Assembly: GCA_017962105.1 (NCBI GenBank)
Contig: JAGCVY010000026.1
Coordinates: forward strand, 1 to 38,393
Source of the DNA: Lachnospiraceae bacterium
Lineage (GTDB): Bacteria > Bacillota > Clostridia > Lachnospirales > Lachnospiraceae
Length of the DNA: 38,393 nucleotides
Direction of reading: 5' to 3'
Made by a program: the position numbers and the translations under genes. Below the pieces are notes generated by a model that worked only from the letters and a program-made list of their open reading frames with translations, had not been told where the DNA came from and searched no databases. Numbering within the stretch: position 1 is the first letter of the stretch; the number at the start of each line of letters is the position of its first letter. Shown piece after piece: positions 2,127 to 36,857 of this stretch.

Positions 2127-3515
2127 TTACCACTCAAACTTTTTCTCGAAGTAAGCCTTCAGATCCTCGATCTTCACACGCTCCTGCTCCATGGTGTCGC
2201 GGTCGCGAACCGTGACGCAGCCGTCGGTCTCGGAGTCGAAGTCGTAGGTAACGCAGAACGGCGTGCCGATCTCGTCCTGACGGCGATAGCGCTTGCCGAT
2301 GTTTCCGCGGTCGTCATACTCGCAGTTGTAGTACTTCGAAAGCTCGGCGTAAATCTTGTCTGCGCCGTCAGCCAGCTTCTTGGAAAGCGGAAGTACGCCG
2401 ATCTTCACAGGCGCAAGAGCCGGATGGAAGTGAAGGACGGTTCTCATATCGCCTTCGCCGAGATCCTCCTCGTCGTAAGCGGCGCACAGGAATGCAAGAA
2501 CCACGCGGTCGGCGCCGAGGGACGGCTCGACAACGTAAGGCGTGTAGCGCTGCTGCTTCTCATCGTCGAAGTAGGTGAGGTCCTCACCCGAGGTGTTGAT
2601 GTGCTGTGTAAGGTCGTAGTCGGTACGGTCTGCGATACCCCAAAGCTCGCCCCAGCCGAAGGGGAACAGGAACTCGATGTCGGTGGTTCCCTTTGAGTAG
2701 AAGCAAAGCTCCTCGGGATCGTGGTCGCGGAGACGCATCTCGTCCTCCTTGATGCCGAGGGAGAGAAGCCAGTCACGGCAGAATGCTCTCCAGTACTGGA
2801 ACCACTCAAGATCGGTGCCGGGCTCGCAGAAGAACTCCAACTCCATCTGCTCAAACTCTCTCGTGCGGAACGTGAAGTTACCGGGCGTGATCTCGTTTCG
2901 GAAGCTCTTGCCGATCTGGCCGATACCGAAGGGGATCTTCTTGCGGCTCGTACGCTGAACGTTTTTAAAGTTTACAAAGATACCCTGAGCAGTCTCGGGG
3001 CGAAGATAAACGGTGTTCTTCGCATCCTCGGTAACGCCCTGGAAGGTCTTGAACATCAGGTTGAACTGACGAATATCGGTGAAGTTGTGCTTGCCGCAGG
3101 ACGGGCAGGGGATGTTATTGTCCTCCACAAACGCCTTCATCTCGTCCTGGGAAAATGCGTCGATCGGCTTCGGAAGCGTGATGCCCTTCTCCGCCGCAAA
3201 ATCCTCGATCAGCTTGTCCGCGCGGAAGCGCTCGTGGCACTCCTTGCAGTCCATCAACGGATCGGAAAATCCGCCCAGATGGCCCGATGCAACCCAGGTC
3301 TGCGGGTTCATCAGGATGGCGCAGTCCACACCGACATTATAGGGGTTTTCCTGAATGAATTTCTTCCACCAGGCTTTCTTTACGTTGTTCTTCAGCTCAA
3401 CGCCGAGGTTGCCGTAATCCCAGGTGTTAGCCAGGCCGCCGTAAATCTCGGAGCCCGGATATACAAAGCCTCTTGCCTTCGCAAGTGCAACAATTTTGTC
3501 CATCGTTTTTTCCAT
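2127..3515 (-). CDS. glyS: Glycyl-tRNA synthetase, single-chain alpha2 type
   Basis: It charges tRNA-Gly with glycine in the cytoplasm. The 462 residues match the length of the Bacillus/Clostridium dimeric enzyme (often called GlyQS). Class II motif 2 is seen as [11 protein letters not shown] with following Arg/Glu residues, and motif 3 as [10 protein letters not shown]. Two Cys pairs ([15 protein letters not shown]) lie in the N-terminal half. The reading frame extends 18 codons further upstream. The start chosen is ATG 3515 because GAGGT lies about 8 bases before it and because relatives begin near [14 protein letters not shown] promoter sits at 3560-3588, leaving a leader of only about 40 bases, too short for a T-box. 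It ends at the bidirectional terminator at 1991. Confidence 0.95.
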
Positions 3516-3559
3516 AGTCGCTACCTCATTTCTTTCGCGTTGTGCTGTGATAATCGTTA

Positions 3560-3588
3560 TATATAGCACGCAAATGTGCTTCTGTCAA
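3560..3588 (-). promoter_or_regulatory. Sigma-A promoter of glyS
   Basis: On the minus strand, TTGACA (3588-3583), a 17-base spacer and TATATA (3565-3560). This is one of the best promoters in the window. It sets the transcript start only about 38 bases before the glyS ATG. Confidence 0.8.
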
Positions 3589-3674
3589 CCGAAATCGTGC
3601 TTGTTCGCGCAGTGTCGGTCGTTTCCGGCAGGGCCCGTACGGTTCACTCGTCTCCGAACTCTTACCTATCTCTC

Positions 3675-5462
3675 TTATTCGGGATCATGTCCCTTGCCTT
3701 CCTGCGATTTTCCGCGTCTTCTGACCTTTCCGGTCAGGATCGCAGCCCCCGCGCCCGCTGCCGCTGTCACGGCGCAGATCGGGATTGCATACAGGAGCGG
3801 ATCAACATCCTTATCCTTGTTTTTGACGGCGTCATCCCCGGCAGCCGCATTTTCCGTCGGCGTGGGAACCGGCGTATCTGTCGGAACCGGTGTCGGCGTG
3901 TCCGTCGGAGTGGGTGTCGGCGTATTCGTCGGAGTCGGTGTCGGTGTGTTGGTCGGGGTGGGCGTCGGCGTGTTGGTCGGCGTCGGTGTCGGTGTATTCG
4001 TCGGAGTCGGCGTCGGTGTTTTCGTCGGCTTCGGCGTATTGGTGGGCTTCGGAGTCGGCGTGTTGGTCGGCTTCGGAGTCGGTGTGTTTGTAGGCGTGCT
4101 TGTTGCCTCCGGCTCCCCGGTCACTTCCGGCGTAACCGTATCCTGCGGCTCCCCAGTCACTGCGGGCGTGGCCGTGTCCTTCGGCTCCTCCGTCGGTGTC
4201 GGCGTAGCCGTATTTTGCGCCTTCTCCCTCGACGCGTGCTCCATCATATTATTTCCGGTGTCCAAACCGACCGTCGTGCGGAACAGACCGAACTCCGCCG
4301 CGCTGTACTCATAGTCGTCGGAGACGTAGAACCAGCACCACTGCTGTGACTCGTGCTTGAGGTAGGCATTTTTCGCCACCTCGAGGGCCGTCTTGCCGCC
4401 GAACTCGGAAAGCGGCACGCGCATATTCAATTTCAGTTTGTTTTTCCCGTAGAGATGGAAGTATGTCTTCTGCACATCCCAGGTGCCGTATTTTTCGGCC
4501 GACTCCGGCAGGTAATCCGCCTCCATCGAGTGCTCGATCACTTCCTGCACCGCCGCGTTCAGGATCATGTGGCCGCCGTGGCCGTACTCGCCCTTGATGT
4601 CGTGAGTGACGATGACCAGCGGTTTGAATCGGCGGACCATCTCGCAGGTGCTTTTTATCAGCTTGTTGATATCGTACTTCTTCTTTGCGCCGTCAAGGGA
4701 TGTCGCATAATAGTCAACATAGTTCATACAGGCCGGGTAGTTGCGGATGCCGCTGGCCCACAGACCGTCCAGCTTCTCGTGCTCGCGCACGGGCTCCGTC
4801 GACCAGAACTCACACATATATACGACCTGCAGGCGGCGTTTCTCCTGTCCGCCGTACTGCGCAAGCACGCCGCCCATGAAGAGGATCTCATCATCCGCGT
4901 GAGTCGAGAAGACCACAATGTCCGCCTCCTTAAGGGCGGGCTTCCAGACTTGTACGTCCGCGGGAAGCTTGCCCTCGGAAAATGCCTCGATCTCACTCAC
5001 ATACATGTCCTTCTCCAGCCGGATCTCCACGCTGGTTGCCGGCTCCGCGAGCTCGACATAGTCGTGCAGGAATCCCTGCTGACCGTGCTTCTCCGTTTTT
5101 TCATTATAGTGAAGCGTGTACGGGGAAACCGTGGACCCCCAACGGATGTAGACGCCGTACATCGGTTTCTCCGACGTCACGGTGAGAACCTCGCCCTTCT
5201 TGTACTGCACGCGGGTTTTGTTGGAGTTGTCGCGCAGCTTGCTCTGCGCACTGCCCTTGGCGTTCTTCACGGTGATCTTCAGAGAGACTGCCTCTTTCGT
5301 CTCATCCTTCGAAGCCTTCGCCGTTTCCGCCCCAGCACCTTTTACGCACAGGGCAAGAAAAAGCGCAAGGGCTGCCATAAGCGCCAAACGCATCGCCGGA
5401 CCCGCAAGCATCCCAAGCCTTCTGCGAAGCCGGCCGGACCACCGTTCCACGGAATCGTTCAT
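3675..5462 (-). CDS. PIG-L family deacetylase, secreted and membrane-anchored, with long Thr-Pro linker
   Basis: The PIG-L/LmbE family are zinc de-N-acetylases acting on GlcNAc-type sugars. Residues 1-46 form a basic N-region plus hydrophobic signal segment ending AGAETAK. Residues 60-165 look like a beta-rich module. The PIG-L domain begins near 180 with the motif HADDE (188-192) and has a GHGGH motif at 294-298, whose His298 fits the third zinc ligand. Residues from about 418 to 550 are a Thr-Pro-Asn linker of repeated NTPTPTPT units. A hydrophobic helix near 555-578 and the basic tail KVRRRGK suggest membrane anchoring with the enzyme outside; no LPxTG motif is present. ATG 5462 overlaps the recO stop (ATGA), so it is translationally coupled to recO. 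The substrate is unknown; a surface polysaccharide or peptidoglycan sugar is likely. Confidence 0.85.
3860..4100 (-). repeat. 24-base tandem repeat encoding the NTPTPTPT linker
   Basis: About eight imperfect 24-base units (one shortened to 18) run through this stretch, for example gtgtcggcgtattcgtcgga on the plus strand. Each encodes eight residues of the type NTPTPTPT, or NTPTPKPT in the distal units. The length changes in multiples of three, so linker length can vary without breaking the frame. It is coding and is not a CRISPR array. Confidence 0.85.
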
Positions 5463-6268
5463 TCGGATACCTCCTCCACCGCCAGGAGCATCTCAAGGCT
5501 CCTGAAGTTATGATTTACATATTCCATATACCATGCCGCAGCAACCGCCCTCAGCTCCGCGAGCACTTCCTCGCTCACGGAAAATGAGAACAGCTTCGAC
5601 GGCTGTGTGGACGCGATCACACGCAGCGTATACCACGTCGAATCGTCAAGGTTGTAGTAGCCCGAGGCGACCGCCTGGGTCCGCAGCTCGTACGCCCTGC
5701 GTCCCTCCTCGTCGAACAGCTCACCCGCACATCGCCGGCACAGGCATCCGCCGGATGGCACATGCATAACGAACGGGCCTTCCTTCGTGTGACACCGCAC
5801 GCACTCGTTGACCTGCGGTCCCTCGCCCTCGGCGTAAAGGATCTTGATCTCATACGCCGCCCGCACCAGCCGCGGCGGAATGTCTCCCCGCGAGAGTGCC
5901 CGCAGTGCGCTGTACAGAAGGGCTAACGTCTCGTTCTCGTCGACATTTTCCCCCGTCAGAAACTCCGCGAGTTCACAAAAATACAACCCGCAGCAGGTCT
6001 TCTCCAGGTCGTTTCGAAGCTCCGTAAAATAATTGTTCACCTCAGCGCGGACCGCTGTGTAGGAATTGCGCCCCGCGATGACGAAAAATGTCCCCGTCAC
6101 AAAGGGCTGGGCCGCTGCCACCATCTCGGATTTCGGCTTCTGGGCATTTCTCGCAAAGGCGGAGATCCGCCCGTATTCCTTCGTCAGGATGGACAGCCGG
6201 CGGTCGTTCTCGCCGATGGGTATGGCGGACAGGACGATGCCGTGCAGTGTGATGAGATTGTCCGCCAT
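5459..6268 (-). CDS. recO: DNA repair protein RecO
   Basis: RecO helps load RecA onto SSB-coated single-stranded DNA in the RecFOR pathway. The 269 residues show the N-terminal OB-fold ([19 protein letters not shown], then [18 protein letters not shown]) and a helical C-terminal domain with a zinc site made by C156/C159 and C177/C180 (CVRC...CRRC). The frame also opens at a GTG six bases upstream (6274). ATG 6268 is preferred because GGAGG lies 5 bases before it, while for the GTG the same site would be directly adjacent. It sits 44 bases after era, a common clostridial arrangement, and its stop overlaps the start of the PIG-L gene. Confidence 0.93.
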
Positions 6269-6312
6269 ATGCACCTCCGTCCGTCATTTTCCGTCTGTCG
6301 TCCGCTTCGTTA

Positions 6313-7233
6313 TCAGTCCTCCTCGGGATCGCGGTAGCCGTAGTTGCGGATCAGCGTGTCACTGTCGCGCCAGTTCTCCTTCACCTTGACCCAGAGCTTT
6401 AAGTTGATCTTCGTGCCGGTCATCATCTCGATGTCGCGGCGTGCCTCCGTGCCGATCTTCTTGAGCATGGAGCCCTGCTTTCCGATGATGATCCCCTTGT
6501 GGGATTCCTTCTCGCAGATGATGGTGGCGTCGATGTCGATGAGAGTCCCGCCCTCGCGCTCCTTCATCCGGTCGATCAGAACCGCAACGCCGTGGGGAAT
6601 CTCCTCCGAAAGGTTGCGGAGCGCCTTCTCGCGGATCATCTCCGCCGCAATCTGCCGTTCCGGCTGGTCCGTCACGGTGTCCTCGTCGTAGTACTGCGGG
6701 CCCTCCGGAAGATAGGTAAAGATCGTGTCCGTAAGGTCGTTCGTATTTTCCCCCTTGAGGGCCGACACGGGTACGATCGCCGCAAAATCCAGCTCCTTGC
6801 GGTAGGTATCGATGATGTGGAGGAGGTCCTCCTTCTTCACCTTGTCAATCTTGTTGATGACAAGCATCACCGGCGTCTTCACGCCGCTGAGACGCTTGAT
6901 GATCTCCTGCTCTCCCGCGCCGATATAGTCGCTGGGCTCCACGAGCCACAGGATCAGATCAACGTCCTTTAGGGTGCTCTCCGTCACCTCGGCCATGTAC
7001 TGTCCGAGTTTATTTTTCGCCTTGTGAATCCCGGGCGTGTCCAGGAAAATGATCTGCCCGCGCTCATCGGTGTACACCGTCTGGATGCGGTTCCGCGTCG
7101 TCTGCGGCTTGCTCGAGGTGATGGCGATCTTCTGACCGATCAGCCGGTTCATCAGGGTGGATTTTCCGACGTTCGGGCGCCCGATCAGGGCGACAAATCC
7201 GGAGCGAAACGCCCCGCTATTGCTGTCTTTCAT
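6313..7233 (-). CDS. era: GTPase Era
   Basis: Era is an essential GTPase that binds the 3' end of 16S rRNA and assists 30S assembly. The 306 residues contain G1 GRPNVGKST (18-26), G3 DTPG, G4 NKID and G5 SAL, then a C-terminal KH domain with GIIIGKQGSMLKKIG. The frame opens 16 codons further upstream. ATG 7233 is chosen because GAGGGGGT precedes it by about 8 bases and the upstream extension overlaps the M16 peptidase gene. The start lies only 5 bases after the stop codon of that peptidase, so the two are tightly coupled. recO follows. Confidence 0.95.
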   Translation of the reverse strand: MKDSNSGAFRSGFVALIGRPNVGKSTLMNRLIGQKIAITSSKPQTTRNRIQTVYTDERGQIIFLDTPGIHKAKNKLGQYMAEVTESTLKDVDLILWLVEPSDYIGAGEQEIIKRLSGVKTPVMLVINKIDKVKKEDLLHIIDTYRKELDFAAIVPVSALKGENTNDLTDTIFTYLPEGPQYYDEDTVTDQPERQIAAEMIREKALRNLSEEIPHGVAVLIDRMKEREGGTLIDIDATIICEKESHKGIIIGKQGSMLKKIGTEARRDIEMMTGTKINLKLWVKVKENWRDSDTLIRNYGYRDPEED

Positions 7234-7238
7234 GCTTC

Positions 7239-10196
7239 TTACCCCCTCAGGCTCCGGCTTGCAAGGAACAGGTCGGCGCACTCCTTCGCCTGACGCTCCG
7301 TCGCAAGCGCCGCGCGGTAATCCTGCGCAAGCACCGCCTTAAGCATCGGCGCAAGGGCCGTCAGCTGCTCGTTCGTGACCGAGAGAACCTCGTCGCGAAC
7401 CTGCTGCCACTCTTCCTTCGTCAATCCCGTAAAATACCGTGACATCGCCGTACCCAGGATGGACGCCGGCGTAAACGGCGTGTCCATGCCGGCGATGGTG
7501 CCGATGACATACTTCGTAATCTCGTTCTCGCTGAGATTGAGGTTCGCCGTGTACTCCACCGCACCCTCAAATGCCTTGTAGGACTCGCGGCAGTTCGGAT
7601 CGCGGTAGGTCGCCATAAAGGTATCACCCGAGATCATGCCGAAGCCCTGCATCGCGCCGTACGCACCGCCGAGCACACGGATCTTGTTCCACAGATAATC
7701 GCGCGCAAGAAGCGTGTTGAGCACCGCGAAAGCACCGTTGTACTTCCATCCGGCCTCGATGAAATTGCCGGCGATCGCATTGTATTGAACGGCGCCCGCA
7801 TAGGTGAGCACCTCATTTTTCTTCGTAAGGGTGTAGCCGCCCTTCCACGGCAGGTCCTTCATCGCCGGAACGGGCGCCGCTGCCGGAAGCTCCGCGAACA
7901 GGCCCGGGATCACGGCAAAGTCATCCGCTGCCTTGGCATATCCCTCAGCGCCCGAGGAGATACCGATGGTCAGGTTCTCCTTGCGGAAAATGTGGGCACG
8001 GATCCTTATCAGGTGATCCACCAGCTCATCCTTCACCGCGTCGAAATCCGCAAGCCACTTCTTCACGCAGCCGTAGTACGCCTCCCCGCAGGAGAAGTGG
8101 GTAAACGCCGCCGACGGACTGAAGTAGGAGTACGCAAGACTGCGTGCCGTGCTGTGTCCCCTCGCCTCAAAGGAGGACGGAAGACGCACCGCCAGCTCCG
8201 CTAAGATCTCGCGGAGACGGTTTGTATCCGTAAACTGCAAACGTCCGATGCCTTCCCACGCAAGGTCGAGGCCCTTGGCAAGACCGCCGTCGAACACCTT
8301 GACGGCGATGGTGTACTGGCCGCGCATCGCGCCGAGCTCACCCTTCACGGGCGTGGACTCGAGATACCCGTTGATGCCGCCGGTGTAGAAGTTCACCTCG
8401 TCCTGCAACTCGCGGTATCCGTAGTTGGCCGTGTCCATATAGGCATAGACATCCGAGAGGAGTCCCAGATACGGCAGTTCCTCCTGTGGAATGTCCGTCG
8501 CGTCGAAACGAAGCTGTACATAGGTGATCCCGCTGGCGAAGTTTTCAATCTTCACAACCGGGATCCCGTCCGTCGTCTTCGTCACCTCGTAGGGCACCGG
8601 AAGCTGTTCCTTATCGATATCGTCGATGGAGAGCAGCGGGATGCAGGAGAGTTCCTCCTCCGTCTCCACACGGCTCTGGAATTCCTTCAGCGCCTTCGTC
8701 TTCGCCACGAGCTCATCGATCTCCTCGGGGCTCATGGCCGCCTTCTTCGCCGCAAGCTTCTCCGCGAGCGCCTTCTCCTCCTTGCCCGCAAGTCCGGGCT
8801 CGGGAGTCATCACCACGAGAGCCGCATGGTCGGTGTCTAAGAATTCCTGAAGAAGCCCCTCAAAGTATCCGTTCTCAAGCTCCCCGCGAAGCTCCTCGAA
8901 AAGGTATGCTTTGTCAAGTGCGTCAAATGTCGCATTTTCCGAATACAGGCACCCGGACAGCGACGCTGCCGCGAAGAGAATGCCCTTCGGATACCCGCCG
9001 AACTCCGCCTCACGGTATGCAAACTCGGCGCTGTTCAGTGCGCCCAGAACGCTTCGCTTGTTCACTCCCTCGCGGGCGGCCTTCGCCACCTCGTCGCGGA
9101 TGATGCGGAGGAATTCGTCCGCCTTCTTAGGCTCGGTCTCCCGGGCCGTCACCGCCAGAACCGGCTGCCGCATATCTGACACGACGTAGCTGCCCACGTC
9201 GTTGCCGATGCCGGCGTCCACAAGCGCCTTCTTCACGGGTGCGCCCGGCATGCTGAAGAGAATGCCGGACAGAACATCCCACGCCAGCGACTTCTTTAAG
9301 TCGGGACCGTCGAAGAGCTTCACACCGTATTGAAGATATGTCTTGTCCTTCGTGTCATCGCCCTCCTCCACGGAGTAGGGGATATCCACGCGGCGGAAAC
9401 CCGTGGGCTTCTGCACGCCGACCTCCGAATCCACGGGAATGATATCAAACTTGGACAGATACGACCGGTCGAGCTCGGTCAGCATATCCGCCATATCCAT
9501 GTCGCCGTACAGGTAGATGTAGCTGTTGGCCGGCGAATAGTAGGTGTGATGGAACTCCTTGAAGGCCTCATAGGTAAGCTCCGGGATCACCTTCGGGTCG
9601 CCGCCCGACTCCACGCCGTAAGTCACGTCCGGGTACATGGCCTGCATCATCGTCTGGTGCAAGCTGCTTTCCGGATCGGAGTAAACCCCCTTCATCTCGC
9701 TGTACACCACGCCGTTGATGGTGAGATCCGCCTCCGGGCTCTCCATCTCGTAGCGCCAGCCCTCCTGGCGGAAAATTTCCTCACGGCGGTAGATGAGCGG
9801 GTGCATCACCGCGTCCATGTACACGTCCACCAGGTTTTTGAAATCCTTATAGTTGCAGCTCGCCACCGGATACATGGTCATATCCGGGGCGGTAAATGCA
9901 TTCAGGAATGTCTTGAGCGACCCCTTCGCCATCTCGGTGAACGGGTCCTTCACCGGATACTTCTCCGAGCCTGCAAGCACCGAGTGCTCGATGATGTGCG
10001 GCACGCCCGTGCTGTCCATGGGCGTGGTGCGGAAGGCAATGGCGAACACCTTGTTCGGGTCGTCGTTCGCAAGAAGTACAACCTTCGCGCCGCTCTTTAC
10101 ATGCTTTAGCACAAGGCCGTCCGCATTGATGTCCGGAAGCGCCCGATGCTCCACACGCTCGTATCCGCTTACGGAAAATGTTTCCAAATCAGTCAT
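7239..10196 (-). CDS. M16C (presequence-protease-like) metallopeptidase
   Basis: The 985 residues fit the one-chain M16C subfamily (PreP/Cym1-like), zinc peptidases that digest short peptides inside a closed chamber. The inverted zinc motif HIIEH gives H67, E70 and H71. The third ligand is E167 in VYSEMKG; the spacing of 96 residues from the second His matches the PreP type. No signal peptide is present, so it is cytoplasmic and probably recycles peptides, which fits PepF and the peptide ABC transporter elsewhere in the window. ATG 10196 has AGGAG 8 bases upstream. It heads era-recO-PIG-L with only 5 bases to era. A weak internal promoter may lie at 10211-10239. Confidence 0.92.
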   Translation of the reverse strand: MTDLETFSVSGYERVEHRALPDINADGLVLKHVKSGAKVVLLANDDPNKVFAIAFRTTPMDSTGVPHIIEHSVLAGSEKYPVKDPFTEMAKGSLKTFLNAFTAPDMTMYPVASCNYKDFKNLVDVYMDAVMHPLIYRREEIFRQEGWRYEMESPEADLTINGVVYSEMKGVYSDPESSLHQTMMQAMYPDVTYGVESGGDPKVIPELTYEAFKEFHHTYYSPANSYIYLYGDMDMADMLTELDRSYLSKFDIIPVDSEVGVQKPTGFRRVDIPYSVEEGDDTKDKTYLQYGVKLFDGPDLKKSLAWDVLSGILFSMPGAPVKKALVDAGIGNDVGSYVVSDMRQPVLAVTARETEPKKADEFLRIIRDEVAKAAREGVNKRSVLGALNSAEFAYREAEFGGYPKGILFAAASLSGCLYSENATFDALDKAYLFEELRGELENGYFEGLLQEFLDTDHAALVVMTPEPGLAGKEEKALAEKLAAKKAAMSPEEIDELVAKTKALKEFQSRVETEEELSCIPLLSIDDIDKEQLPVPYEVTKTTDGIPVVKIENFASGITYVQLRFDATDIPQEELPYLGLLSDVYAYMDTANYGYRELQDEVNFYTGGINGYLESTPVKGELGAMRGQYTIAVKVFDGGLAKGLDLAWEGIGRLQFTDTNRLREILAELAVRLPSSFEARGHSTARSLAYSYFSPSAAFTHFSCGEAYYGCVKKWLADFDAVKDELVDHLIRIRAHIFRKENLTIGISSGAEGYAKAADDFAVIPGLFAELPAAAPVPAMKDLPWKGGYTLTKKNEVLTYAGAVQYNAIAGNFIEAGWKYNGAFAVLNTLLARDYLWNKIRVLGGAYGAMQGFGMISGDTFMATYRDPNCRESYKAFEGAVEYTANLNLSENEITKYVIGTIAGMDTPFTPASILGTAMSRYFTGLTKEEWQQVRDEVLSVTNEQLTALAPMLKAVLAQDYRAALATERQAKECADLFLASRSLRG

Positions 10197-10292: not shown

Positions 10293-12188
10293 TTACAGGT
10301 AATCTTCTTCGTCGTAATCATCCGGCTCCGGAGTCTTCTCCCTCACCTTCGCCTTGGGCTTATCCTCCACGGGCTTCACCGGTTTTCCGGACTTGGCCGA
10401 GGTCTTCGCAGCCTCGCCGGCCGCTGCCTTGGATGCCGTCTTCGGCTTCTTCCTGCCGGCTTCGAGCTCATCCATCGCACGCTTTGCCTCGTCCACGGAT
10501 TTCTTCGCCTTGCGCTCCGCCTGCTCGGCCGACTTCATGGCAGTCATGGCCTCGGCAACCTTGGCCTTGTGCTTGGCCGAATCCTCGCGAAGCAGCCTCG
10601 GATCGAAGGTTTCATCGGAGTCATCCTCCTCCGGTTCTTCCTCGGCGTCATACTCCTTCGCGTTCCGGTTGTGCGCGATCAACAGCAACACCAAAAGAAG
10701 GATGCACAGTCCGAACAATCCGGCGATGATCCCGGCTCCGATCCTCTCGCGCTTCGAAAGGCTCTCGATCAGTTTCCAGAATCCGCCCGGCGAGGTGGTT
10801 CTCGCGGGTGCGGGATTGACATCCCCGTTCTTGTCCGGGGTCTCCGGCGGTGTCGGCGTTTCCGGATCGTTACCGCCCTGCTGGCCGGCCTCTCCCGTCG
10901 GTTCCGGCGACGGTTCCGCGGAAAGCTCCGGCGTCGGCGTCACGGTCTCCGTGGGCTGGACCACGGTGTACAGCGCATCCGAATAGCGCTGAACGGTCTG
11001 TTCCTTCACATCAACAAGATACCATCCCTCGGTGCCCTCGGGGCTTCGCAGATACGCCAGAACCAGATCCGGCTCCGCCTCGGTGCGGTACACTATAAGT
11101 CGCTCGCCGAAGATGTCGGCTTCGTTCTCGGCAAACCCATCCGGGACCTCCACATTTTCCGGCTTCGGAAGATACCGGTACAGGCGCGCCGAGCCGGCTA
11201 CCGTCTGCAGCGGGTAACACTTCACTGCCCCGTCTTCTCCTGCGGAGAATACGTACAGCTTGCCGTCGCTGAGCTGGACCAGCTTCGTGTCCTCCTGATC
11301 CGAGGACGCCACGGCAACATGGTATCCGTTCACATCGGTCTCCGCGGCGGCAAATCCCTCCGGAAGCTGCGCGGTGATCTCATCCAAAAGCGTCAGATCC
11401 TGCTCGTCGACATGAACCGTAAGTCCCGGCGTCGGCGTTGCGGACGGACTCGGGGTCGGCGTGGGCGTGTTCGTCGGCGCAGGTCCGCGGTTTACCGTAA
11501 TCTTATATGTCTTCTTGGTCTTACCGTCCTCGGCCGTAACCGTGATCGAGACGGTGTTCTTGCCTTCCTTCAGATCCTTGTTGCCGGACACGGAAACCTT
11601 TGCTTTGCTGTCCTCGGCCTTCGCGGACACGGAGACGGAGCGCTTCTTTCCGTCAAGCTCCATGGAATACTCGTATGTGTCTTTGGAAAATGACGGTGAA
11701 ATCTTGCCTTCCTCCACGGAAAGGCTTTTCAGATAGGCGTTGGTAGATGCCACGTACGGCGGCTTTACGGTGACGGTTCCGTTGGAAACCTTCGTTCCGC
11801 CCGGGAAGGCGTCTCCGCAGTTCAGGGGAAGGATATCGACGCCGGAGGCCTTGATGGTCGCCGTGCCTTCCTTCTTTCCCTTGAAGGTGTATGTATAGGT
11901 TTTGCTCTTCTCGGAAATGTCTATGTCAAGCTCGTGGATTGAGCCGCTTTTCCCTTCACATTCCAAAAGAGAAGTGTCATAAGTCAGTGTAAATTCGACG
12001 ACACCGATTGCCTCCGGCGCGCTGACCTTCACGGTCACCTTTACGGTTCCTCCCACTTCGCAGCTGCCGCTTGACACCGTGAGAGTGGCCGGATCCGCGG
12101 CAAATGCCGTCTCCGCCATGCCGCCCATCACACCGGCCAGCAGACATATTGTCAACAGAATTCCCAGTAGTTTTCTTTGAAGTTTCAA
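10293..12188 (-). CDS. Cohesin-like, cadherin-like membrane-anchored surface protein
   Basis: This is a modular secreted protein. In order: a signal peptide (KLQRKLLGILLTICLLAG, cleaved near TAFA-AD); a cohesin-like beta-sandwich of about 110 residues (SSGSCEVGGTVKVTVKV, GVVEFTLTYDTSLLEC); a cadherin-like domain (YLKSLSVEEGKISPSFS to YKITVNRG); a Thr-Pro linker; a domain of about 140 residues that I cannot name; a second Pro-rich linker; one membrane helix (AGIIAGLFGLCILLLVLLLI); and a charged, Ala/Lys-rich cytoplasmic tail with coiled-coil character. The frame opens at ATG 12206, which lacks a ribosome site. TTG 12188 has AAGGGGGATC 7 bases upstream and starts directly at a normal signal peptide, so I chose it. 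The gene follows the dockerin-bearing glucosaminidase. Cohesins bind dockerins, so the neighbour is a candidate ligand (inference). Confidence 0.8.
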   Translation of the reverse strand: MKLQRKLLGILLTICLLAGVMGGMAETAFAADPATLTVSSGSCEVGGTVKVTVKVSAPEAIGVVEFTLTYDTSLLECEGKSGSIHELDIDISEKSKTYTYTFKGKKEGTATIKASGVDILPLNCGDAFPGGTKVSNGTVTVKPPYVASTNAYLKSLSVEEGKISPSFSKDTYEYSMELDGKKRSVSVSAKAEDSKAKVSVSGNKDLKEGKNTVSITVTAEDGKTKKTYKITVNRGPAPTNTPTPTPSPSATPTPGLTVHVDEQDLTLLDEITAQLPEGFAAAETDVNGYHVAVASSDQEDTKLVQLSDGKLYVFSAGEDGAVKCYPLQTVAGSARLYRYLPKPENVEVPDGFAENEADIFGERLIVYRTEAEPDLVLAYLRSPEGTEGWYLVDVKEQTVQRYSDALYTVVQPTETVTPTPELSAEPSPEPTGEAGQQGGNDPETPTPPETPDKNGDVNPAPARTTSPGGFWKLIESLSKRERIGAGIIAGLFGLCILLLVLLLIAHNRNAKEYDAEEEPEEDDSDETFDPRLLREDSAKHKAKVAEAMTAMKSAEQAERKAKKSVDEAKRAMDELEAGRKKPKTASKAAAGEAAKTSAKSGKPVKPVEDKPKAKVREKTPEPDDYDEEDYL

Positions 12189-15654: not shown

Positions 15655-15683
15655 ATTTTAGCCGTAAAAATGGAAAATGTCAA
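15655..15683 (-). promoter_or_regulatory. Sigma-A promoter of dapF
   Basis: On the minus strand, TTGACA (15683-15678), a 17-base spacer and TAAAAT (15660-15655). It may drive the whole dapF-to-PIG-L block. Confidence 0.8.
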
Positions 15684-18949: not shown

Positions 18950-18993
18950 CCTTTCGGGAAAATGTTTCCCCTCACCGTCAATACGAAAAGCCA

Positions 18994-29812: not shown

Positions 29813-31348
29813 TTACTTCGTCGCCCATTCCACCGAAGCCATATCCTGCACGTACACCGGATAGAAGGTGTAGCCGGTCAGGCCCTTTGCGACCGCCACC
29901 ATCAGGGACGGGCTCTGCAGGAACACGGATGCTGCATCGTCGCTTAAGCACTTCTGCAGCTCGTGGTACAAAGCAACCTTCCGGTCGGTGTCAACCGTTG
30001 CCATAGCCTCGTTGTATTTGGCGTCGAAATCATCACTCTTATAGTTGATGAAGTTCTTCGTCGAACCGCCGATGTAATACTTCAGGATGTCGCTGGGTGC
30101 AAGCTGCGAATCCAGACCGATGATGGTCGCGTCGCAGTTGTGGCCCTTGTAGACGTCCGAAAGCCAGGTCGCCCACTCGATCAGCTCGATCTTCATGGTG
30201 ATGCCGACCTTCTTCAGCTGGTTTGCCAGAACCTCCGCCGTCTGCACGTGATATGTGTAGTTCGAAGGAACCTTCACGGTAAATGTGAATCCGTCCGCGT
30301 AACCGGCCTCCTGAAGCAGCTGCTTTGCCTTTGCCTCGTCGTGCGGGTACGCATTTTCCAGCGAGCTGTCATAATACAGGCCGAAGGTCGAGTACATGCC
30401 GCTGCCGATCGCGGTTCCGTAGCCGCCGTTGAGCATTTGCAGGATCTCGTTCTTGTCAACCGCGTAATTCACAGCCTGACGAACGCGGACATCGTCGAAG
30501 GGCTTCACCGCGTTGTTCAGGAACAGCCCCTGAACAAGGCTCATGCTGCCGACTTCGATGTTAAATTTGTCCTTGAGCTGCTCCGCCTGATCGACGGTCA
30601 GATACGGGAAAATGTCGATATTTCCCGCCTGCAGCTTCAGGAATGCGGCGTCGGTGCTCTCCGAGATGGAAAATGTCACCTTCTGGAGATGCGCCTTGGT
30701 TCCGTAGTAATCGTCGTACCGCTCCATCACCAGACTGTCCATGGGCTTGTAGGATACGAACTTGAACGGACCTGTACCAACCGGGCTCTTCGCCTGGTTG
30801 TCATAATTTTTCGGAATGATGTTGCAGGTAAAATACCCGATCAATTCCGTGTTGGGCGTCGAGAGCGTGACCGTGATCACGTCCTTGCCGTCGCTTCCTT
30901 TGGAAGCTGTAATGTCGGAAATAACAGAAAACGCAGCAACGACTTGTACTTCCGGATCCGGAGTCTCCAAGCGTCCTGCGCATCGATTCAACGAATATAC
31001 CACATCATCCGCCGTAACGGTCTCTCCGTTGTGGAACTTTACGCCGCTGCGCAACACAAATGTGTATTTCGTTCCATCCGCCGAGATCTCGTAGCTTTCC
31101 GCTACCGCGGGTACCAGTTTGCCGTCTTTGTCAGACTTTACCAAGCCTTCAAAGATGTTGTACAAGACTTCTCTGGTTCCTGCCGCTACCGCTTTGTGTG
31201 GGTCAAGACTGTCCAAATCCTGTGTTATTCCTACCACCACAGCTCCACCTTTCGTGTTGTCTTCCGGATCCTTTGTACCGCCTTCGCATGCGCAAAGTGC
31301 AGTCATTGCGGACACCAGAAGCAGAAAACAAGCAAAATACTTCTTCAT
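29813..31348 (-). CDS. Peptide ABC transporter substrate-binding lipoprotein (SBP family 5)
   Basis: The 511 residues begin with a lipoprotein signal peptide (YFACFLLLVSAMTALCAC, lipobox LCAC). The mature protein has the family 5 hallmarks: QDLDSLDPHKA, VLYNIFEGLVKSDKDG, GTKYTFVLRSGVKFHNGE, and VRQAVNYAVDKNEIL. Family members capture oligopeptides, nickel or sugars; the linked PepF and M16C genes favour peptides. ATG 31348 has AGGAG 5 bases upstream. It is the first gene of the transporter operon with a promoter at 31399-31427, divergent from the DUF2927-like lipoprotein. Confidence 0.93.
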   Translation of the reverse strand: MKKYFACFLLLVSAMTALCACEGGTKDPEDNTKGGAVVVGITQDLDSLDPHKAVAAGTREVLYNIFEGLVKSDKDGKLVPAVAESYEISADGTKYTFVLRSGVKFHNGETVTADDVVYSLNRCAGRLETPDPEVQVVAAFSVISDITASKGSDGKDVITVTLSTPNTELIGYFTCNIIPKNYDNQAKSPVGTGPFKFVSYKPMDSLVMERYDDYYGTKAHLQKVTFSISESTDAAFLKLQAGNIDIFPYLTVDQAEQLKDKFNIEVGSMSLVQGLFLNNAVKPFDDVRVRQAVNYAVDKNEILQMLNGGYGTAIGSGMYSTFGLYYDSSLENAYPHDEAKAKQLLQEAGYADGFTFTVKVPSNYTYHVQTAEVLANQLKKVGITMKIELIEWATWLSDVYKGHNCDATIIGLDSQLAPSDILKYYIGGSTKNFINYKSDDFDAKYNEAMATVDTDRKVALYHELQKCLSDDAASVFLQSPSLMVAVAKGLTGYTFYPVYVQDMASVEWATK

Positions 31349-31398
31349 CTTTGCTCCTTCCCCACTATCCAGTGGAACTTATGTAATTTTGCACCCCC

Positions 31399-31427
31399 AT
31401 ATTACACCGCGCCCTCGGAAAATGCAA
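31399..31427 (-). promoter_or_regulatory. Promoter of the peptide transporter operon
   Basis: On the minus strand, TTGCAT (31427-31422), a 17-base spacer and TAATAT (31404-31399). Confidence 0.7.
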
Positions 31428-31464
31428 GCACTTTCGCCGCGGGGGGCTGCCCCTTCCCCCTGCC

Positions 31465-31493: not shown

Positions 31494-31578
31494 TGCGGTG
31501 TTGTCGGCAAATCGGTGTGACAAGGCATGTTGTTACGCGGTTTTGCCGCTGTGAATGTCTGAAAGGGGGGACCGACAT

Positions 31579-32412: not shown

Positions 32413-32452
32413 TACAACACCGGAAGGATCAACATTTTCCGAAAGGACTGCC

Positions 32453-33178
32453 ATGGATATCAAAAACAAACCGACCGCATTGGACGACGATGCGGAAATC
32501 TATCAGCGCCGTGAGGAGGAATCGTCCTCCAAGACGGAGCGGGAGAAGCTCGCCGAGCTCTCTTTCAAAGGGAAGGTTCAGTATCTCTGGGATTATTACG
32601 CCCTGAAGGCTTTTTTTGTGCTTGTGGGCGTCGGTCTTCTGGTTTCCCTCCTTGTTTTTATGCTTCGCCCCAAGCCGGACCGGGTGGCCGATATCACGAT
32701 CCTGGATTCGCCCTGGTACCCGCAGGCTGTACAGGATTATTCCGACATTCTCCTGAAGCATCTTGAACTGGACAAGGAAGCCAACGAAGTCCTTATTTCC
32801 GATGGGCTTCGGTTCGGCGGCGGCTCCGACCTGATGGCCGTCACGACGCACATGGCCGGGGGCGACCTCGACATTTTGATCGGAACCCGGGAGGCGATAG
32901 TCCAGTATTCGGAAAATGGTGCTCTCGTTCCGCTCGACACACTTCCCGCTGACATTCTCGCCCTGATCCCCGAGGAGGACCGGATCAGTTCGGACAAGAT
33001 TGAGGACGAAGGTCTCCGCGATTACGCCTTTAACCTGAAGGGCACGGCGTTTGCAAAATACGTGGACCCCAAAGGCATGGTGCCCACCGATATGTATCTC
33101 GGCGTGTGCCGCAACACCAGACCGGAGCGAAGCGACAATATCGCGGCGATCGTCCGCATCATGATCACGGGAAAGTAG
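32453..33178 (+). CDS. Single-span membrane protein of unknown function
   Basis: The 241 residues start with a charged cytoplasmic region (DDDAEIYQRREEESSSKTE). Then comes LSFKGKVQYLWDYYALKAFFV, here interrupted, leading into one membrane helix (VLVGVGLLVSLLVFML), and an extracytoplasmic domain of about 165 residues. The F-K-x-K-xx-Y-xWDYY motif before the helix is one I associate with uncharacterised clostridial membrane proteins. The outer part (VADITILDSPWYP, GGDLDILIGTREAIVQYSENG) vaguely recalls a solute-binding fold; this is weak. ATG 32453 has AAAGGA about 5 bases upstream. It lies 40 bases after the DUF2927-like gene, probably the same transcript. Confidence 0.65.
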   Translation: MDIKNKPTALDDDAEIYQRREEESSSKTEREKLAELSFKGKVQYLWDYYALKAFFVLVGVGLLVSLLVFMLRPKPDRVADITILDSPWYPQAVQDYSDILLKHLELDKEANEVLISDGLRFGGGSDLMAVTTHMAGGDLDILIGTREAIVQYSENGALVPLDTLPADILALIPEEDRISSDKIEDEGLRDYAFNLKGTAFAKYVDPKGMVPTDMYLGVCRNTRPERSDNIAAIVRIMITGK

Positions 33179-33217
33179 GCCGCAGGCAAAAAACTTGCAA
33201 ATTTGCGAAAAAAACAC

Positions 33218-33246
33218 TTGCAAAATCATTTTCCGTGGAGTAGAAT
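33218..33246 (+). promoter_or_regulatory. Sigma-A promoter of asd
   Basis: TTGCAA (33218-33223), a 17-base spacer and TAGAAT (33241-33246). The spacer contains one copy of the CATTTTCC octamer (33227-33234). Confidence 0.8.
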
Positions 33247-33302
33247 AGCGCATATCCGCGGACAAATGTCCGTCACAGAAATACAAAACGAGGTTTTCAG
33301 AC

Positions 33303-34403
33303 ATGAGTAAATTCAATTTGGACAAGAAACTGCGCGTCGGCGTGATCGGTGCTACCGGCATGGTCGGCCAGCGCTTCATCTCTCTTTTGGAAAATCACCC
33401 CTGGTTTGAGGTCGTGACCGTTGCCGCTTCCCCGAGGAGCGCCGGCAAGCGTTACGAGGACGCCGTGGGTGACCGTTGGAAAATGCCTACCCCGATGCCC
33501 GAGGCGGTCAAGGATCTGATCGTTTACGACGCCAGCGAGGTGGAGAAGGTTGCCGCAACCTGTGATTTCGTATTTTCCGCTGTGGATCTCAAGAAGGACG
33601 AGATCCGCGCCATCGAGGAGGCGTACGCCAAGACGGAGACGCCCGTTGTGTCCAACAACAGCGCACACCGCTGGACGCCCGACGTTCCGATGGTTGTGCC
33701 GGAACTCAACCCCGAGCACTATGAGATCATCCCCGCACAGAGAAAGCGCCTCGGCACGAAGCGCGGTTTCATCGCGGTAAAGCCGAACTGCTCCATCCAG
33801 AGCTACACGCCTATGCTTCACGCCCTCAAGGAGTTTGAGCCCACGGTTGTGGTCGCAACGACCTACCAGGCAATCTCCGGCGCCGGCAAGAACTTCAAGG
33901 ATTGGCCGGAAATGATCGACAACGTCATTCCGTACATCGGCGGCGAGGAGGAGAAGAGCGAGCAGGAGCCTCTCCGCATCTGGGGACACATCGAGAACGG
34001 CGAGATTGTCAAGGCAAGCTCCCCGATCATCACGACGCAGTGTATCCGCGTGCCCGTTACCGACGGACATACCGCAGCGGTGTTCGTGAATTTTGCGAAG
34101 AAGCCCACGAAGGAGCAGATCCTCGAGGCATGGAAGAACTTCAAGGGACTTCCGCAGGAGCTTGAGCTTCCCAGCGCTCCGAAGCAGTTCATCACCTACT
34201 TCGAGGAGGACAACCGTCCGCAGTGCAAGCTCGACCGCGAGACCGAGAACGGTATGGGCGTCTGCGCCGGCCGTCTCCGCGAAGACGCTGTCTACGACTG
34301 GAAGTTCGTCGGCCTGTCCCACAACACCAAGCGCGGCGCCGCAGGCGGAGCCATCCTTTCCGCAGAGCTTTTGGTTGCCCAGGGCTACATCACGGCGAAG
34401 TAA
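33303..34403 (+). CDS. asd: Aspartate-semialdehyde dehydrogenase, archaeal/fungal-type
   Basis: It reduces aspartyl phosphate to aspartate semialdehyde with NADPH, feeding lysine/DAP, threonine and methionine synthesis. The 366 residues show the nucleotide-binding motif GATGMVGQ near the N-terminus, the catalytic Cys163 in KPNCSIQS and the acid/base His256 in DGHTAAV. Length and motifs fit the archaeal/fungal branch, also common in Clostridia. ATG 33303 has only a weak AGG nearby. It has its own promoter and terminator (34427). It acts in the same pathway as dapF at 14741. Confidence 0.93.
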   Translation: MSKFNLDKKLRVGVIGATGMVGQRFISLLENHPWFEVVTVAASPRSAGKRYEDAVGDRWKMPTPMPEAVKDLIVYDASEVEKVAATCDFVFSAVDLKKDEIRAIEEAYAKTETPVVSNNSAHRWTPDVPMVVPELNPEHYEIIPAQRKRLGTKRGFIAVKPNCSIQSYTPMLHALKEFEPTVVVATTYQAISGAGKNFKDWPEMIDNVIPYIGGEEEKSEQEPLRIWGHIENGEIVKASSPIITTQCIRVPVTDGHTAAVFVNFAKKPTKEQILEAWKNFKGLPQELELPSAPKQFITYFEEDNRPQCKLDRETENGMGVCAGRLREDAVYDWKFVGLSHNTKRGAAGGAILSAELLVAQGYITAK

Positions 34404-34426
34404 TCAGCCGTACTGATAAGAAAATC

Positions 34427-34458: not shown

Positions 34459-34503
34459 GTCGGAAAATGAATTCATCTACCGCCGAACTCTGCGGACTGC
34501 CGG

Positions 34504-35352
34504 TCACAGGAAAATCTCCCGGCAGATCTCTTCCGCCGCTTTCCGGCATATGATGTAGCTGTTGATGACCGGCGTGTTGAAGTCCTTTAGCGGGATCGCG
34601 AGAAGCCTCCCCTCCTCGATGTAGGGTCTGGCCATATCCTGCGGAAGGAACGTGTAGGTGTCACGGTTTAAGAGGTAGGGGACGATTTTCATACAGTCGT
34701 CGATCTCGAACGCAAAATGATGATATTTCGGGAACAGCTTGCGGATGTACTGCCCCACGTCCTGAAGGGCGAAGTTGCACATCAGGTAGCGCTCCGGGGA
34801 GAGTTCATTTTCCGAGATACCGTCCCGGTACTTTGTGTTGGCGCTGTCGGTGACCAGGACCAGCTCATCCTGCTTGTAGATGGTGCACACCAGCGAAGTC
34901 TTCTTGATGGGCCGGTACGTGAATACCACATCGAGAAGATCGTCCTGGATCTGCTCCAGAAGATGGTCGGTGAGGCCGATGGTTATCTTCAGCGAATCCT
35001 TCGGGTGCGTGTTCCGGTGCTTTAAGATGATCGGCGCGAGGTGGCCCTCGTAGATGGAGTCGGTGCTGCCGATGCGGAGGTACCGCTCATACCGCGGGAT
35101 CGCGGACATCTCGGCGAGGGATGCGTCCGTGAGCTCCACAACCTTCTCCGCGTACACCGCAAAGCGCTCTCCCTCCGCCGTGAGGCTTACCCGGCGGTTC
35201 GTGCGCTCAAACAGCCGGAAGCCGAGCTCCCGCTCGAGCTCGTTGATGCGGTTTGTCACCGTCGACTGCGCGACGAACAGCTGGTCCGCCGTCTTCGTAT
35301 AGTTCTTATTTTCCGCCAAAGCTAGGAACGTCCGGATGGATTCGATGTCCAT
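34504..35352 (-). CDS. LysR-family transcriptional regulator
   Basis: The 282 residues have an N-terminal winged helix-turn-helix (MDIESIRTFLALAENKNYTK, TADQLFVAQSTVTNRINELE, RLFERTNRRVSLTAEGE). The C-terminal effector domain is of the periplasmic-binding-protein type (YLRIGSTDSIYEGHLAP onward). ATG 35352 has GGGAGG 8 bases upstream. It is divergent from the Re-citrate-synthase-like gene across a 122-base gap containing two T-N11-A dyads, the usual LysR layout for control of the neighbouring gene. The effector is unknown; a metabolite of that enzyme would be the simple guess. Confidence 0.93.
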   Translation of the reverse strand: MDIESIRTFLALAENKNYTKTADQLFVAQSTVTNRINELERELGFRLFERTNRRVSLTAEGERFAVYAEKVVELTDASLAEMSAIPRYERYLRIGSTDSIYEGHLAPIILKHRNTHPKDSLKITIGLTDHLLEQIQDDLLDVVFTYRPIKKTSLVCTIYKQDELVLVTDSANTKYRDGISENELSPERYLMCNFALQDVGQYIRKLFPKYHHFAFEIDDCMKIVPYLLNRDTYTFLPQDMARPYIEEGRLLAIPLKDFNTPVINSYIICRKAAEEICREIFL

Positions 35353-35386: not shown

Positions 35387-35430
35387 AGTTGCTATTTGGA
35401 TTATTCATTTTACAAATTATAGCGGGTGTG

Positions 35431-35443
35431 TTACAACTTGTAA
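35431..35443. promoter_or_regulatory. Candidate LysR-type operator, near the synthase gene
   Basis: The palindrome TTACAACTTGTAA is an exact T-N11-A box. It lies just downstream of a weak promoter-like pair (TTGGAT at 35396, a 16-base spacer, TATAGC at 35418), 31 bases before the start codon of the plus-strand synthase gene. Confidence 0.5.
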
Positions 35444-35474
35444 AGTACATTTTGAAACCACGGAGGATTGTACC

Positions 35475-36857
35475 ATGCGGGATTTGGCGCTCAGCAACAA
35501 GACTTTCAAACTCGAACAGGATCCGTATATCTATCAGCTGCAGGATACGGCGGAACCCGAGCTGTTCCGGGAAATGTTCCCCTACACGGAGACGCCCAAG
35601 ATTGCGTTCAACTATCGACGTGTGCCGGAAAATATGCCCGAGGACATTTTCATCACCGACACCTCGTTCCGCGACGGTCAGCAGTCCCGCACGCCCTACA
35701 CCACCGAGCAGATGGTGCATATCTACAAGCTCCTGCACAAGCTCGGCGGGCCCAACGGCATGATCCGCCAGACCGAGTTCTTCGTGTACTCGGAGAAGGA
35801 CCGCAGGGCGTTGGAAGAATGCATGGCTTTAGGGTATGCTTTTCCGGAGATCACGACGTGGATCCGCGCAAACAAGAAGGATTTCGAGCTTGTGCGCTCG
35901 GTGGGGATCAAGGAGACCGGCATCCTCGTGAGCTGCTCGGATTACCACATTTTCCATAAGATGGGCCTAAACCGCCGCGAGGCGCTGGACCGGTACCTCG
36001 GGATTGTGAAGGACTGCATTGACGCCGGCCTTCGGCCGCGCTGCCACTTCGAGGACATCACCAGGGCCGATTTCTACGGCTTCGTGGTGCCCTTTGCAAA
36101 CAGCCTGATGGACCTCTCCCGCGAGAGCGGCGTTCCGATCAAGATCCGGGCCTGCGACACCATGGGCTACGGGGTTCCGTACCCCGGCGCAACCATGCCC
36201 CGAAGTGTGTCGGGCATCATTTACGGCCTGATGCACTACTCCGAGGTTCCCTCGGAAATGCTGGAGTGGCACGGCCACAACGACTTCTACAAGGGCGTCG
36301 TCAATGCCACAACCGCGTGGATGTACGGGGCAAGCGCCGTCAACTGCTCGCTTCTGGGGATCGGCGAGCGTACCGGCAACGTGCCTCTCGAGGCCATGGT
36401 CTTTGAGTACGCATCGCTTCGCGGCCACTTAAACGGCATGGACACCCGCGCCATCACGGAGATCGCGGAGTACATCCAGAACGAGACCGGCTACGAGATT
36501 CCGCCCATGACGCCTTTCGTTGGCGCCAACTTCAACCTGACCCGCGCGGGCATCCACGCGGACGGCATGATGAAGAATCCTGAGATTTACAACATTTTCG
36601 ATACCGAGACCATCCTGAACCGCCCGCCGAAGGTATCCGTTTCCAACACCTCCGGTCTCGCCGGGGTTGGCTACTGGGTCAACGACTACCGGAAGAAATT
36701 CGGTCTTCCCGAGCTGACGAAAAATGATTCCCTGATCAAGGCTATCTACGACTGGGTCTGCAACGAGTATGACGCCGGCCGGATCACCATCATCAGCGAC
36801 GGCGAGCTCGAGGCCAAATACCGCGAGCTCACGGAGGACGGCGCGGAGGACAAGTAA
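35475..36857 (+). CDS. HMG-lyase-family (DRE-TIM) acyltransferase, probably Re-citrate synthase
   Basis: The 460-residue enzyme belongs to the isopropylmalate/homocitrate/citramalate synthase superfamily. The start of the barrel shows TDTSFRDGQQ (61-70) with the family R-D-G, and the metal site appears as HGH (H266, H268) in EWHGHND. LEGERTGN-like sequence is seen as LGIGERTGNVPLEAMVFEY. An N-terminal extension of about 55 residues (PYIYQLQDTAEPELFREMF) and the stretch VSCSDYHIFHKMG set it apart from LeuA. They recall the anaerobic Re-citrate synthases that condense acetyl-CoA and oxaloacetate. There is no LeuA regulatory domain. ATG 35475 has GGAGG 8 bases upstream. It is divergent from a LysR gene. 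Homocitrate synthase is the main alternative. Confidence 0.8.
   Translation: MRDLALSNKTFKLEQDPYIYQLQDTAEPELFREMFPYTETPKIAFNYRRVPENMPEDIFITDTSFRDGQQSRTPYTTEQMVHIYKLLHKLGGPNGMIRQTEFFVYSEKDRRALEECMALGYAFPEITTWIRANKKDFELVRSVGIKETGILVSCSDYHIFHKMGLNRREALDRYLGIVKDCIDAGLRPRCHFEDITRADFYGFVVPFANSLMDLSRESGVPIKIRACDTMGYGVPYPGATMPRSVSGIIYGLMHYSEVPSEMLEWHGHNDFYKGVVNATTAWMYGASAVNCSLLGIGERTGNVPLEAMVFEYASLRGHLNGMDTRAITEIAEYIQNETGYEIPPMTPFVGANFNLTRAGIHADGMMKNPEIYNIFDTETILNRPPKVSVSNTSGLAGVGYWVNDYRKKFGLPELTKNDSLIKAIYDWVCNEYDAGRITIISDGELEAKYRELTEDGAEDK

Follow-up and report, generated by a model that had tools for sequence, protein, structure and literature searches.

A dense, asymmetric DNA motif with dialects in a rumen Lachnospiraceae genus: a candidate DNA uptake sequence

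The stretch analyzed here (the window) comprises positions 1 to 38,393 of contig JAGCVY010000026.1 of a Lachnospiraceae bacterium, and our subject is an octamer, GGAAAATG, that recurs within and between its genes. The gene content is ordinary for a chromosome: glycyl-tRNA ligase, recO, era, an oligopeptidase F-type peptidase, and a GreA/GreB gene, together with oligopeptide transporter genes, a LysR regulator, and a ClpB-type AAA gene, at a G+C content of 56.3 per cent. The host is a rumen Lachnospiraceae lineage. In a comparison of 80 loci, the five nearest to the window's solute-binding protein (L001–L005; 86–89 per cent identity) belong to Lachnospiraceae or Lachnoclostridium metagenome-assembled genomes, two of them from the reticulum and rumen of water buffalo. 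The genome that holds the window (G000) comprises 2,587,466 bases in 105 contigs and is 95.9 per cent complete.

Exact copies of GGAAAATG number 30 in the window (18 on the plus and 12 on the minus strand) and span positions 3150..35955, precisely as counted in an earlier reading made from the letters of the window without database searches (the sequence-only reading). Its judgment that the word lies far above chance also holds: 100 dinucleotide shuffles of the window give a mean of 1.66 copies (maximum 6), and a third-order Markov model predicts 2.85, with no other octamer ranking higher. Beyond the window, 531 kb of G000 (20.5 per cent of the genome) contain 308 copies against a third-order Markov expectation of 40.1, again the top octamer, and the whole genome contains 789 forward and 789 reverse copies, compared with 19 and 15 of the reversed word. 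The over-representation is real. Other octamers rank above GGAAAATG in those species of the genus that are poor in the motif or use a dialect.

A codon or protein origin is ruled out, as the sequence-only reading had argued from the variety of codon phasings. Within 260 genes predicted in 351 kb of G000, synonymous codon shuffling leaves 23.4 copies (maximum 32 in 60 runs) where 182 are observed, 90 of them sense and 92 antisense; repeating the shuffle on genomes G010, G002, and G004 gave the same outcome. An RNA family or tRNA origin is likewise ruled out, as the window has no Rfam match at the gathering threshold and no tRNA.

The octamer is the core of an asymmetric motif of 9–10 bp, about CGGAAAATGC. 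The 9-mer CGGAAAATG occurs 201 times in the 531 kb of G000, against 15.8 expected. Among one-off neighbors, changes at positions 1, 3, and 9 are still over-represented, from 2.8x to 9.7x (CGTAAAATG, 9.7x; CGAAAAATG, 8.6x; TGGAAAATG, 7.3x; CGGAAAATA, 5.5x), and changes at position 4 mildly so (1.8–3.0x). The 12 possible changes in the AAAT center reach at most 1.8x, and because transitions there stand at 0.2–0.5x, the pattern has the form left by protein recognition rather than by decay. An expectation-maximization matrix for G000 (C.78, G.96, G.62, A.81, A.95, A.98, A.97, T.99, G.60, C.52) agrees with the neighbor table in showing an intolerant core with tolerated positions, as in uptake sequences, and gives a density of about 1.65 sites per kb. 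The matrix fits were loose for G008 and G004 and drifted to codon-period patterns for G006, for G017, and for an arbitrary seed. Relative to the average of 60 shuffled 10-mers, the 10-mer in G000 reaches 57x with no mismatch, 12x with one, 2.6x with two, and 1.5x with three; G006 and G017, though motif-poor, also show an excess at one, two, and three mismatches (5.6x, about 2.5x, and about 1.9x), so the signal is clean for exact matches only.

The motif shows no replication polarity, as the near-equal strand use in the window had suggested. Across 1.16 Mb of nine motif-rich genomes, in stretches oriented by GC skew and not by a mapped origin (those under 0.03 were dropped), 318 copies of GGAAAATG are leading and 305 lagging (binomial P = 0.63), whereas permuted octamers of equal composition divide into 6436 leading and 3245 lagging (66.5 per cent leading). 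The motif thus escapes the strand bias that its composition would impose. Gaps between 309 copies in joined stretches of G000 fit an exponential distribution (Kolmogorov–Smirnov [KS] P = 0.41), and spacing in G010 is likewise random (KS P = 0.88), with neither clustering nor regular spacing of the octamer in these two genomes. In G000, sites of the wider motif family are spread a little more evenly than chance placement would give (KS P = 0.047; standard deviation/mean 0.93); in G010 they are not (P = 0.86). Because the gaps fit an exponential, the 7.2-kb copy-free gap in the window is ordinary, and the uneven placement that the sequence-only reading saw in it falls away.

Copies of G000 are retained between species. 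In gapless parts of pairwise alignments (at least 70 per cent identity and at least 250 bp; gapped sites dropped), they are kept exactly in 57 of 111 comparisons with eight motif-rich relatives, against 601 of 2293 for permuted octamers (Fisher P = 4.5e-8, from comparisons that share sites). Per unique site, retention is 0.516 (51 sites) versus 0.248 (925 sites), and the excess is present in every flank-identity bin. The figures are 24/34 versus 160/660 for G010 alone and 58/124 versus 729/2897 over all 16 relatives. Retention so far above that of matched octamers argues for recent upkeep in motif-rich species.

Copies are also enriched between genes: 33 of 214 in a G000 sample are not wholly inside open reading frames (ORFs), in 8.5 per cent of the bases. 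The base before the octamer is C in 65 per cent of these 214 copies and in 16 of the 30 in the window, where the preference was first remarked. The window copies occupy five of the six sense/antisense codon phases. Seven of them had been called intergenic; longest-ORF calls place five outside genes, but such calls are crude (29963-31600 on the plus strand was taken over the Pfam-supported gene 29813-31348 on the minus strand), so that the copy at 31417 is probably a sixth and that at 14812 perhaps a seventh, which makes the original number plausible. The 30 copies are listed below, with the coordinates of the octamer.

3150..3157, plus: GGAAAATGC, antisense within the glycyl-tRNA ligase ORF 2127-3569; identical in G002
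3848..3855, minus: CGGAAAATG, sense, ORF 3675-5462
4977..4984, plus: CGGAAAATG, antisense, ORF 3675-5462
5579..5586, plus: CGGAAAATG, antisense, recO ORF 5459-6274
5944..5951, minus: GGAAAATG, sense, recO ORF; the aligned site in G002 reads GGAAAATC
6285..6292, minus: CGGAAAATG, intergenic
7044..7051, plus: GGAAAATG, antisense, era ORF 6313-7281; G002 has GGAAAATA
7985..7992, plus: CGGAAAATG, antisense, ORF 7239-10196
8933..8940, minus: CGGAAAATGC, sense, ORF 7239-10196
10173..10180, plus: CGGAAAATG, antisense, 5' end of ORF 7239-10196
11153..11160, minus: CGGAAAATG, sense, ORF 10293-12206
11685..11692, plus: GGAAAATG, antisense, ORF 10293-12206
13075..13082, plus: GGAAAATG, antisense, ORF 12340-14775
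14812..14819, minus: CGGAAAATG, ORF 14741-15586, an uncertain gene call; maybe intergenic
15672..15679, plus: GGAAAATG, intergenic
18856..18863, minus: GGAAAATG, sense, ORF 18413-18874
18957..18964, plus: GGAAAATG, intergenic
22447..22454, plus: CGGAAAATG, antisense, ORF 20603-22540
23184..23191, plus: GGAAAATGC, intergenic
30352..30359, minus: GGAAAATGC, sense, SBP_bac_5 ORF 29813-31348; identical in G002
30607..30614, plus: GGAAAATG, antisense, same SBP_bac_5 ORF; identical in G014, G005, and G010
30668..30675, plus: GGAAAATG, antisense, same SBP_bac_5 ORF; identical in G014, G002, G005, and G010
31417..31424, plus: CGGAAAATGC, upstream of the SBP_bac_5 ORF
32433..32440, minus: CGGAAAATG, end of ORF 32429-33379
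32911..32918, plus: CGGAAAATG, antisense, ORF 32429-33379
33227..33234, minus: CGGAAAATG, ORF 32429-33379; not retained in G007 or G010
33478..33485, plus: GGAAAATGC, strongly conserved stretch, ORF 33303-34403 (plus) or 33297-34322 (minus); identical in G014 and G010, altered in G002, G005, and G007
34462..34469, plus: CGGAAAATG, intergenic
34806..34813, minus: CGGAAAATG, sense, LysR-family ORF 34504-35352
35948..35955, minus: GGAAAATG, ORF 35475-36857

Within the genus, all 22 genomes exceed the reversed-word control, from 221 versus 82 copies in G006 to 1763 versus 35 in G010; this control is lenient, as genera elsewhere in the family reach about 2–4 times its level too. The preferred form differs between clades. 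G000 and G010 favor GGAAAATG, and G007 and G008 favor GGCAAATGC (42 versus 3.4 and 25 versus 2.2 expected) alongside GGAAAATG forms. The word CGGCAAATGC is high in G007 (336), G012 (231), and G016 (187), with 65 copies in G000, 24 in G017 (control 34), and 23 in G006 (control 15). These preferences amount to clade-specific dialects. From one two-species clade, G006 and G017, the motif is nearly absent: in-gene copies lie within the shuffle range (18 versus 11.3 expected in G006; 16 versus 9.9 in G017), and CGGAAAATG leaves a faint trace in G006 (12 versus 5.7) and 3 copies versus 7.7 in G017. The two are sisters with support of 1.0 in a midpoint-rooted tree built on four pilus proteins and covering 12 genomes.

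A count over the family (250 genomes, 249 genera) gives 354 copies of the 10-mer CGGAAAATGC in G000 and 324 in G002, and a few tens or fewer in most others; the highest counts elsewhere are 188 (G118), 112 (G253), 103 (G194, in 5.7 Mb), and 102 (G134). Among 12 of these genomes in which the octamer was counted as well (G194 is not one of them), G118 has 783 copies (control 41), G253 714 (15), and G134 1616 (82). The share of octamers lying within the 10-mer is 24 per cent in G118, 16 per cent in G253, and 6 per cent in G134, compared with 22 per cent in G000 and about 11 per cent in mildly enriched genera such as G085. Judged by this share, G118 looks like a carrier of the same motif, G253 probably is one, and the octamer excess of G134 may have another cause. 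Five other genera, sampled at 25–80 kb (G029 partly masked), contain no comparable octamer. Separately, loci L252–L255 of G033 (another genus) and L128–L134 of G004 have many overlapping over-represented 9-mers, unlike a short motif, which suggests longer dispersed repeats.

The sequence-only reading proposed to look for competence genes; those for ComEA, ComEC, and a type IV pilus are present in most or all genomes of the genus. G000 encodes a ComEC frame of 780 amino acids, ComEA, and PilB–PilT. Matches to ComEA occur in 22 of 22 genomes at E ≤ 0.001 (21 over the cut-off). ComEC is also matched in all 22 (14 over the cut-off), with long frames in 19; it is interrupted in G016 and represented by short C-terminal-domain matches only in G020 and G021. 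T2SSE matches are equally universal, with long PilB-type frames in 17 genomes, fragments in G003 and G009, and none recognizable in G012, G020, and G021 (79–82 per cent complete). The pilus operon was found in all 12 loci read. One minor pilin has a GspH/FimU-like fold, with EpsH and FimU as best fold-search matches and ComP not among the matches listed, an absence that carries no weight; a sequence search with it returned pilin N-termini only. Pilin charge was rejected as a receptor marker, as the isoelectric points of the GspH-like pilins are mixed: 8.7 (G000), 9.5 (G008, cut at the stretch end), 9.3 (G018), and 7.9 (G014), but 6.1 in G005, 6.5 in the motif-free G017, and 5.0–5.5 in the more strongly cut copies of G004, G010, and G016.

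Dense words that are asymmetric and orientation-free are characteristic of uptake sequences; asymmetric polar words, of Chi and of FtsK-orienting polar sequences (KOPS); and orientation-free palindromes, of the highly iterated palindrome HIP1 and of sites for protein dimers. Because the motif is asymmetric yet orientation-free and has dialects as in Neisseriaceae, we place first the reading that it is an uptake sequence for natural transformation in this rumen genus. The motif is moreover dense and conserved, in a genus with ComEC, ComEA, and type IV pilus genes. This reading is the best fit, better than Chi, KOPS, HIP1, or a ribosome-binding site, and we consider it slightly likelier right than wrong. 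The type IV pilus, probably via a minor pilin, would bind the motif on free DNA; PilT would retract the pilus; and ComEA and ComEC would carry a single strand inward. As kin DNA, imported by preference, recombined into the chromosome, the motif would build up in both orientations at all places where genes can bear it, and a change of receptor would let it drift into dialects. Binding, uptake preference, receptor, and competence itself are what we infer from sequence. The broader proposition, an independently evolved sequence-specific uptake with dialects in monoderm gut Lachnospiraceae, covering this genus and at least two further ones (G118 and G253) that, going by counts only, share its motif, and read by a GspH/FimT-like minor pilin, we hold more tentatively, with doubt slightly ahead of belief.

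The DNA uptake sequences (DUS) of Neisseriaceae number about 1900 per 2.2–2.3 Mb and have dialects that follow phylogeny, according to one study (PMC3630211). The Lachnospiraceae motif is similar in density (1578 octamers in 2.59 Mb), is also the most abundant genomic word, has an intolerant core with tolerated flanks and dialects along phylogeny, and belongs to an organism with a type IV pilus. It differs from DUS in its unrelated sequence, in its monoderm host, in having no stop codon in any frame of the 10-mer, and in being known from sequence alone. Like the uptake signal sequence (USS) of Pasteurellaceae, it is asymmetric and lies on both strands, in and between genes, and its excess falls gradually with mismatch load; the word is another one, and the gradient is partly background, given the raised mismatch classes of G006 and G017.

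The chief rival, unlikely in our view but the least so, is a binding site, used in either orientation, for a chromosome-organizing or other housekeeping DNA-binding protein. The sharp specificity profile, the conservation between species, and the presence of copies regardless of gene context would all suit such a site, but matS, parS, Noc, and SlmA sites are palindromic and/or far rarer, the octamer is randomly spaced, and it would be strange for a housekeeping site to switch dialect inside a single genus. An iterated motif linked to methylation, or resembling HIP1, and kept by a DNA methyltransferase or by mutation or repair bias, is improbable. HIP1 of cyanobacteria does show that very high copy numbers may be linked with methylation, and it shares with the motif great abundance, genic and intergenic placement, and a debated function. 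HIP1 is, however, a palindromic octamer, GCGATCGC, whereas the motif is asymmetric with degenerate positions; tolerance at positions 1, 3, and 9 would be unusual for a methyltransferase, and restriction usually depletes sites. Identity with HIP1 is ruled out by this shape. Of the earlier suggestion that the word is a DNA-level motif nearer to uptake or HIP1-like signals than to Chi or KOPS, the DNA level and the lack of polarity stand, the likeness to uptake sequences is the best fit, and the likeness to HIP1 is poor for want of a palindrome.

Slightly more improbable still is a former uptake sequence now decaying, with competence lost or changing in the living species. The eightfold range of copy number in the genus (221–1763), the nearly motif-free clade, and the interrupted ComEC frame of G016 would fit this; the retention of copies in motif-rich species speaks against it. 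We give marginally less credence to a Chi-like recombination site for AddAB or a polarized KOPS-type site. The motif is octamer-sized, asymmetric, and over-represented, as Chi is, but near-equal leading and lagging use against a skewed background disfavors both, and they were rejected on this ground. PMC8022716 describes Chi in Escherichia coli as almost only on the leading strand and does not exclude non-polar Chi-like sites elsewhere. Least credible by far is that base composition, codon use, or ribosome-binding sites yield the motif as a by-product. The sequence GGAGGAAAATG ends in GGAAAATG, which may inflate octamer counts in other genera and perhaps explain part of their milder excess; G134, where the flanked 10-mer accounts for 102 of 1616 copies, is an example. 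In G000, however, a Shine–Dalgarno-like stretch accompanies only 7 of 308 copies, two of which open a frame of at least 60 codons (14 of 158 in G010, three opening a frame), and copies far exceed the Markov and codon-shuffle expectations, equally in sense and antisense. The ribosome-binding-site tail is ruled out as the source in G000, and the by-product reading is refuted for the window's own genome.

Several observations weigh against an uptake sequence. The motif does not track the uptake machinery across species: G006 and G017 lack it nearly or wholly yet keep the pilus operon, ComEA, and ComEC. G016 has 807 copies and 98 per cent completeness with an interrupted ComEC frame. In other genera PilM is not linked to the motif, passing the cut-off in 4 of the 8 motif-rich genomes and in 16 of the 20 motif-poor ones; it was not found in G253, G134, or G223. 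Gram-positive competence pili occur without PilM, and its family PF11104 also catches other actin-like proteins. The receptor, and not the machine, may decide whether the motif is present. Among 10 pilus-locus proteins scanned for ComP_DUS (PF16732), no match exceeds the Pfam cut-off; a pilin beside pilC (L176, 11208-11720) matches weakly (E = 3.8e-4), scoring 21.7 bits where the cut-off is 27.3. G007 retains 0 of 10 sites. The inverted-pair excess of Neisseria is lacking: in G000 and G010 close pairs are as frequent as random placement predicts, which also rules out inverted-pair terminators. G000 has 15 pairs of wider-family sites no more than 20 bp apart, against 14.9 expected, and 10 of these pairs are divergent. 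A 14-kb stretch of G000 (contig C55) is free of GGAAAATG and consists mostly of ordinary genes (scanned ORFs: Obg, RNase E/G at the edge, PP-loop, AAA, transglutaminase, and one matchless). Two 4-kb portal loci of G005, too short to reveal any depletion in mobile elements, have one copy between them; no portal or TraG-type matches were found in G000. No experiment on competence in these bacteria is known to us.

To our knowledge, uptake tags have so far been recognized only in a few Gram-negative groups, and our literature search found no uptake sequence described in Lachnospiraceae or other Firmicutes; strings of the motif also occur in published text, in one case as part of primers. PMC12040237 treats sequence-specific uptake as an outlier of Neisseria and Haemophilus, nearly all other competent species being sequence-blind, so a confirmed case here would be new. 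If the uptake reading is true, kin-preferring transformation would have arisen a further time, in common bacteria of the rumen with another type of cell envelope; these uncultured organisms would be predicted to be competent; the motif would flag foreign DNA in these genomes and offer a handle for genetic tools; and the drivers of uptake sequences could be tested by independent replication.

Some further features of the window and its genome deserve mention. A single ORF of 862 amino acids (26167-28755) is, judged by eye, a permease fused to two oligopeptide-transporter ABC ATPase domains. At 33207-34405, two long ORFs overlap on opposite strands; DNA identity there is 85–91 per cent in motif-rich species and mostly 76–81 per cent in others (93 per cent in one 234-bp piece), against about 80–85 and 65–75 per cent, respectively, in the less conserved neighbors. 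The 14-kb stretch of C55 includes a phage-integrase-family gene (L192, 8345-9403), with G+C down to 0.44–0.52. After the motif, GCTTAAGC is the window's second strongest octamer. Also over-represented in G000 are CCTCATAG/CTATGAGG (34 versus 6.5 in 531 kb), GTCGGCGT/ACGCCGAC (68 versus 19.5 in 351 kb), and, in the genome sample, the palindrome CTTAAG (126 strand-counts versus 47 expected), which is scarce in G017 (3.6 per 100 kb, versus 11–49 in seven other species).

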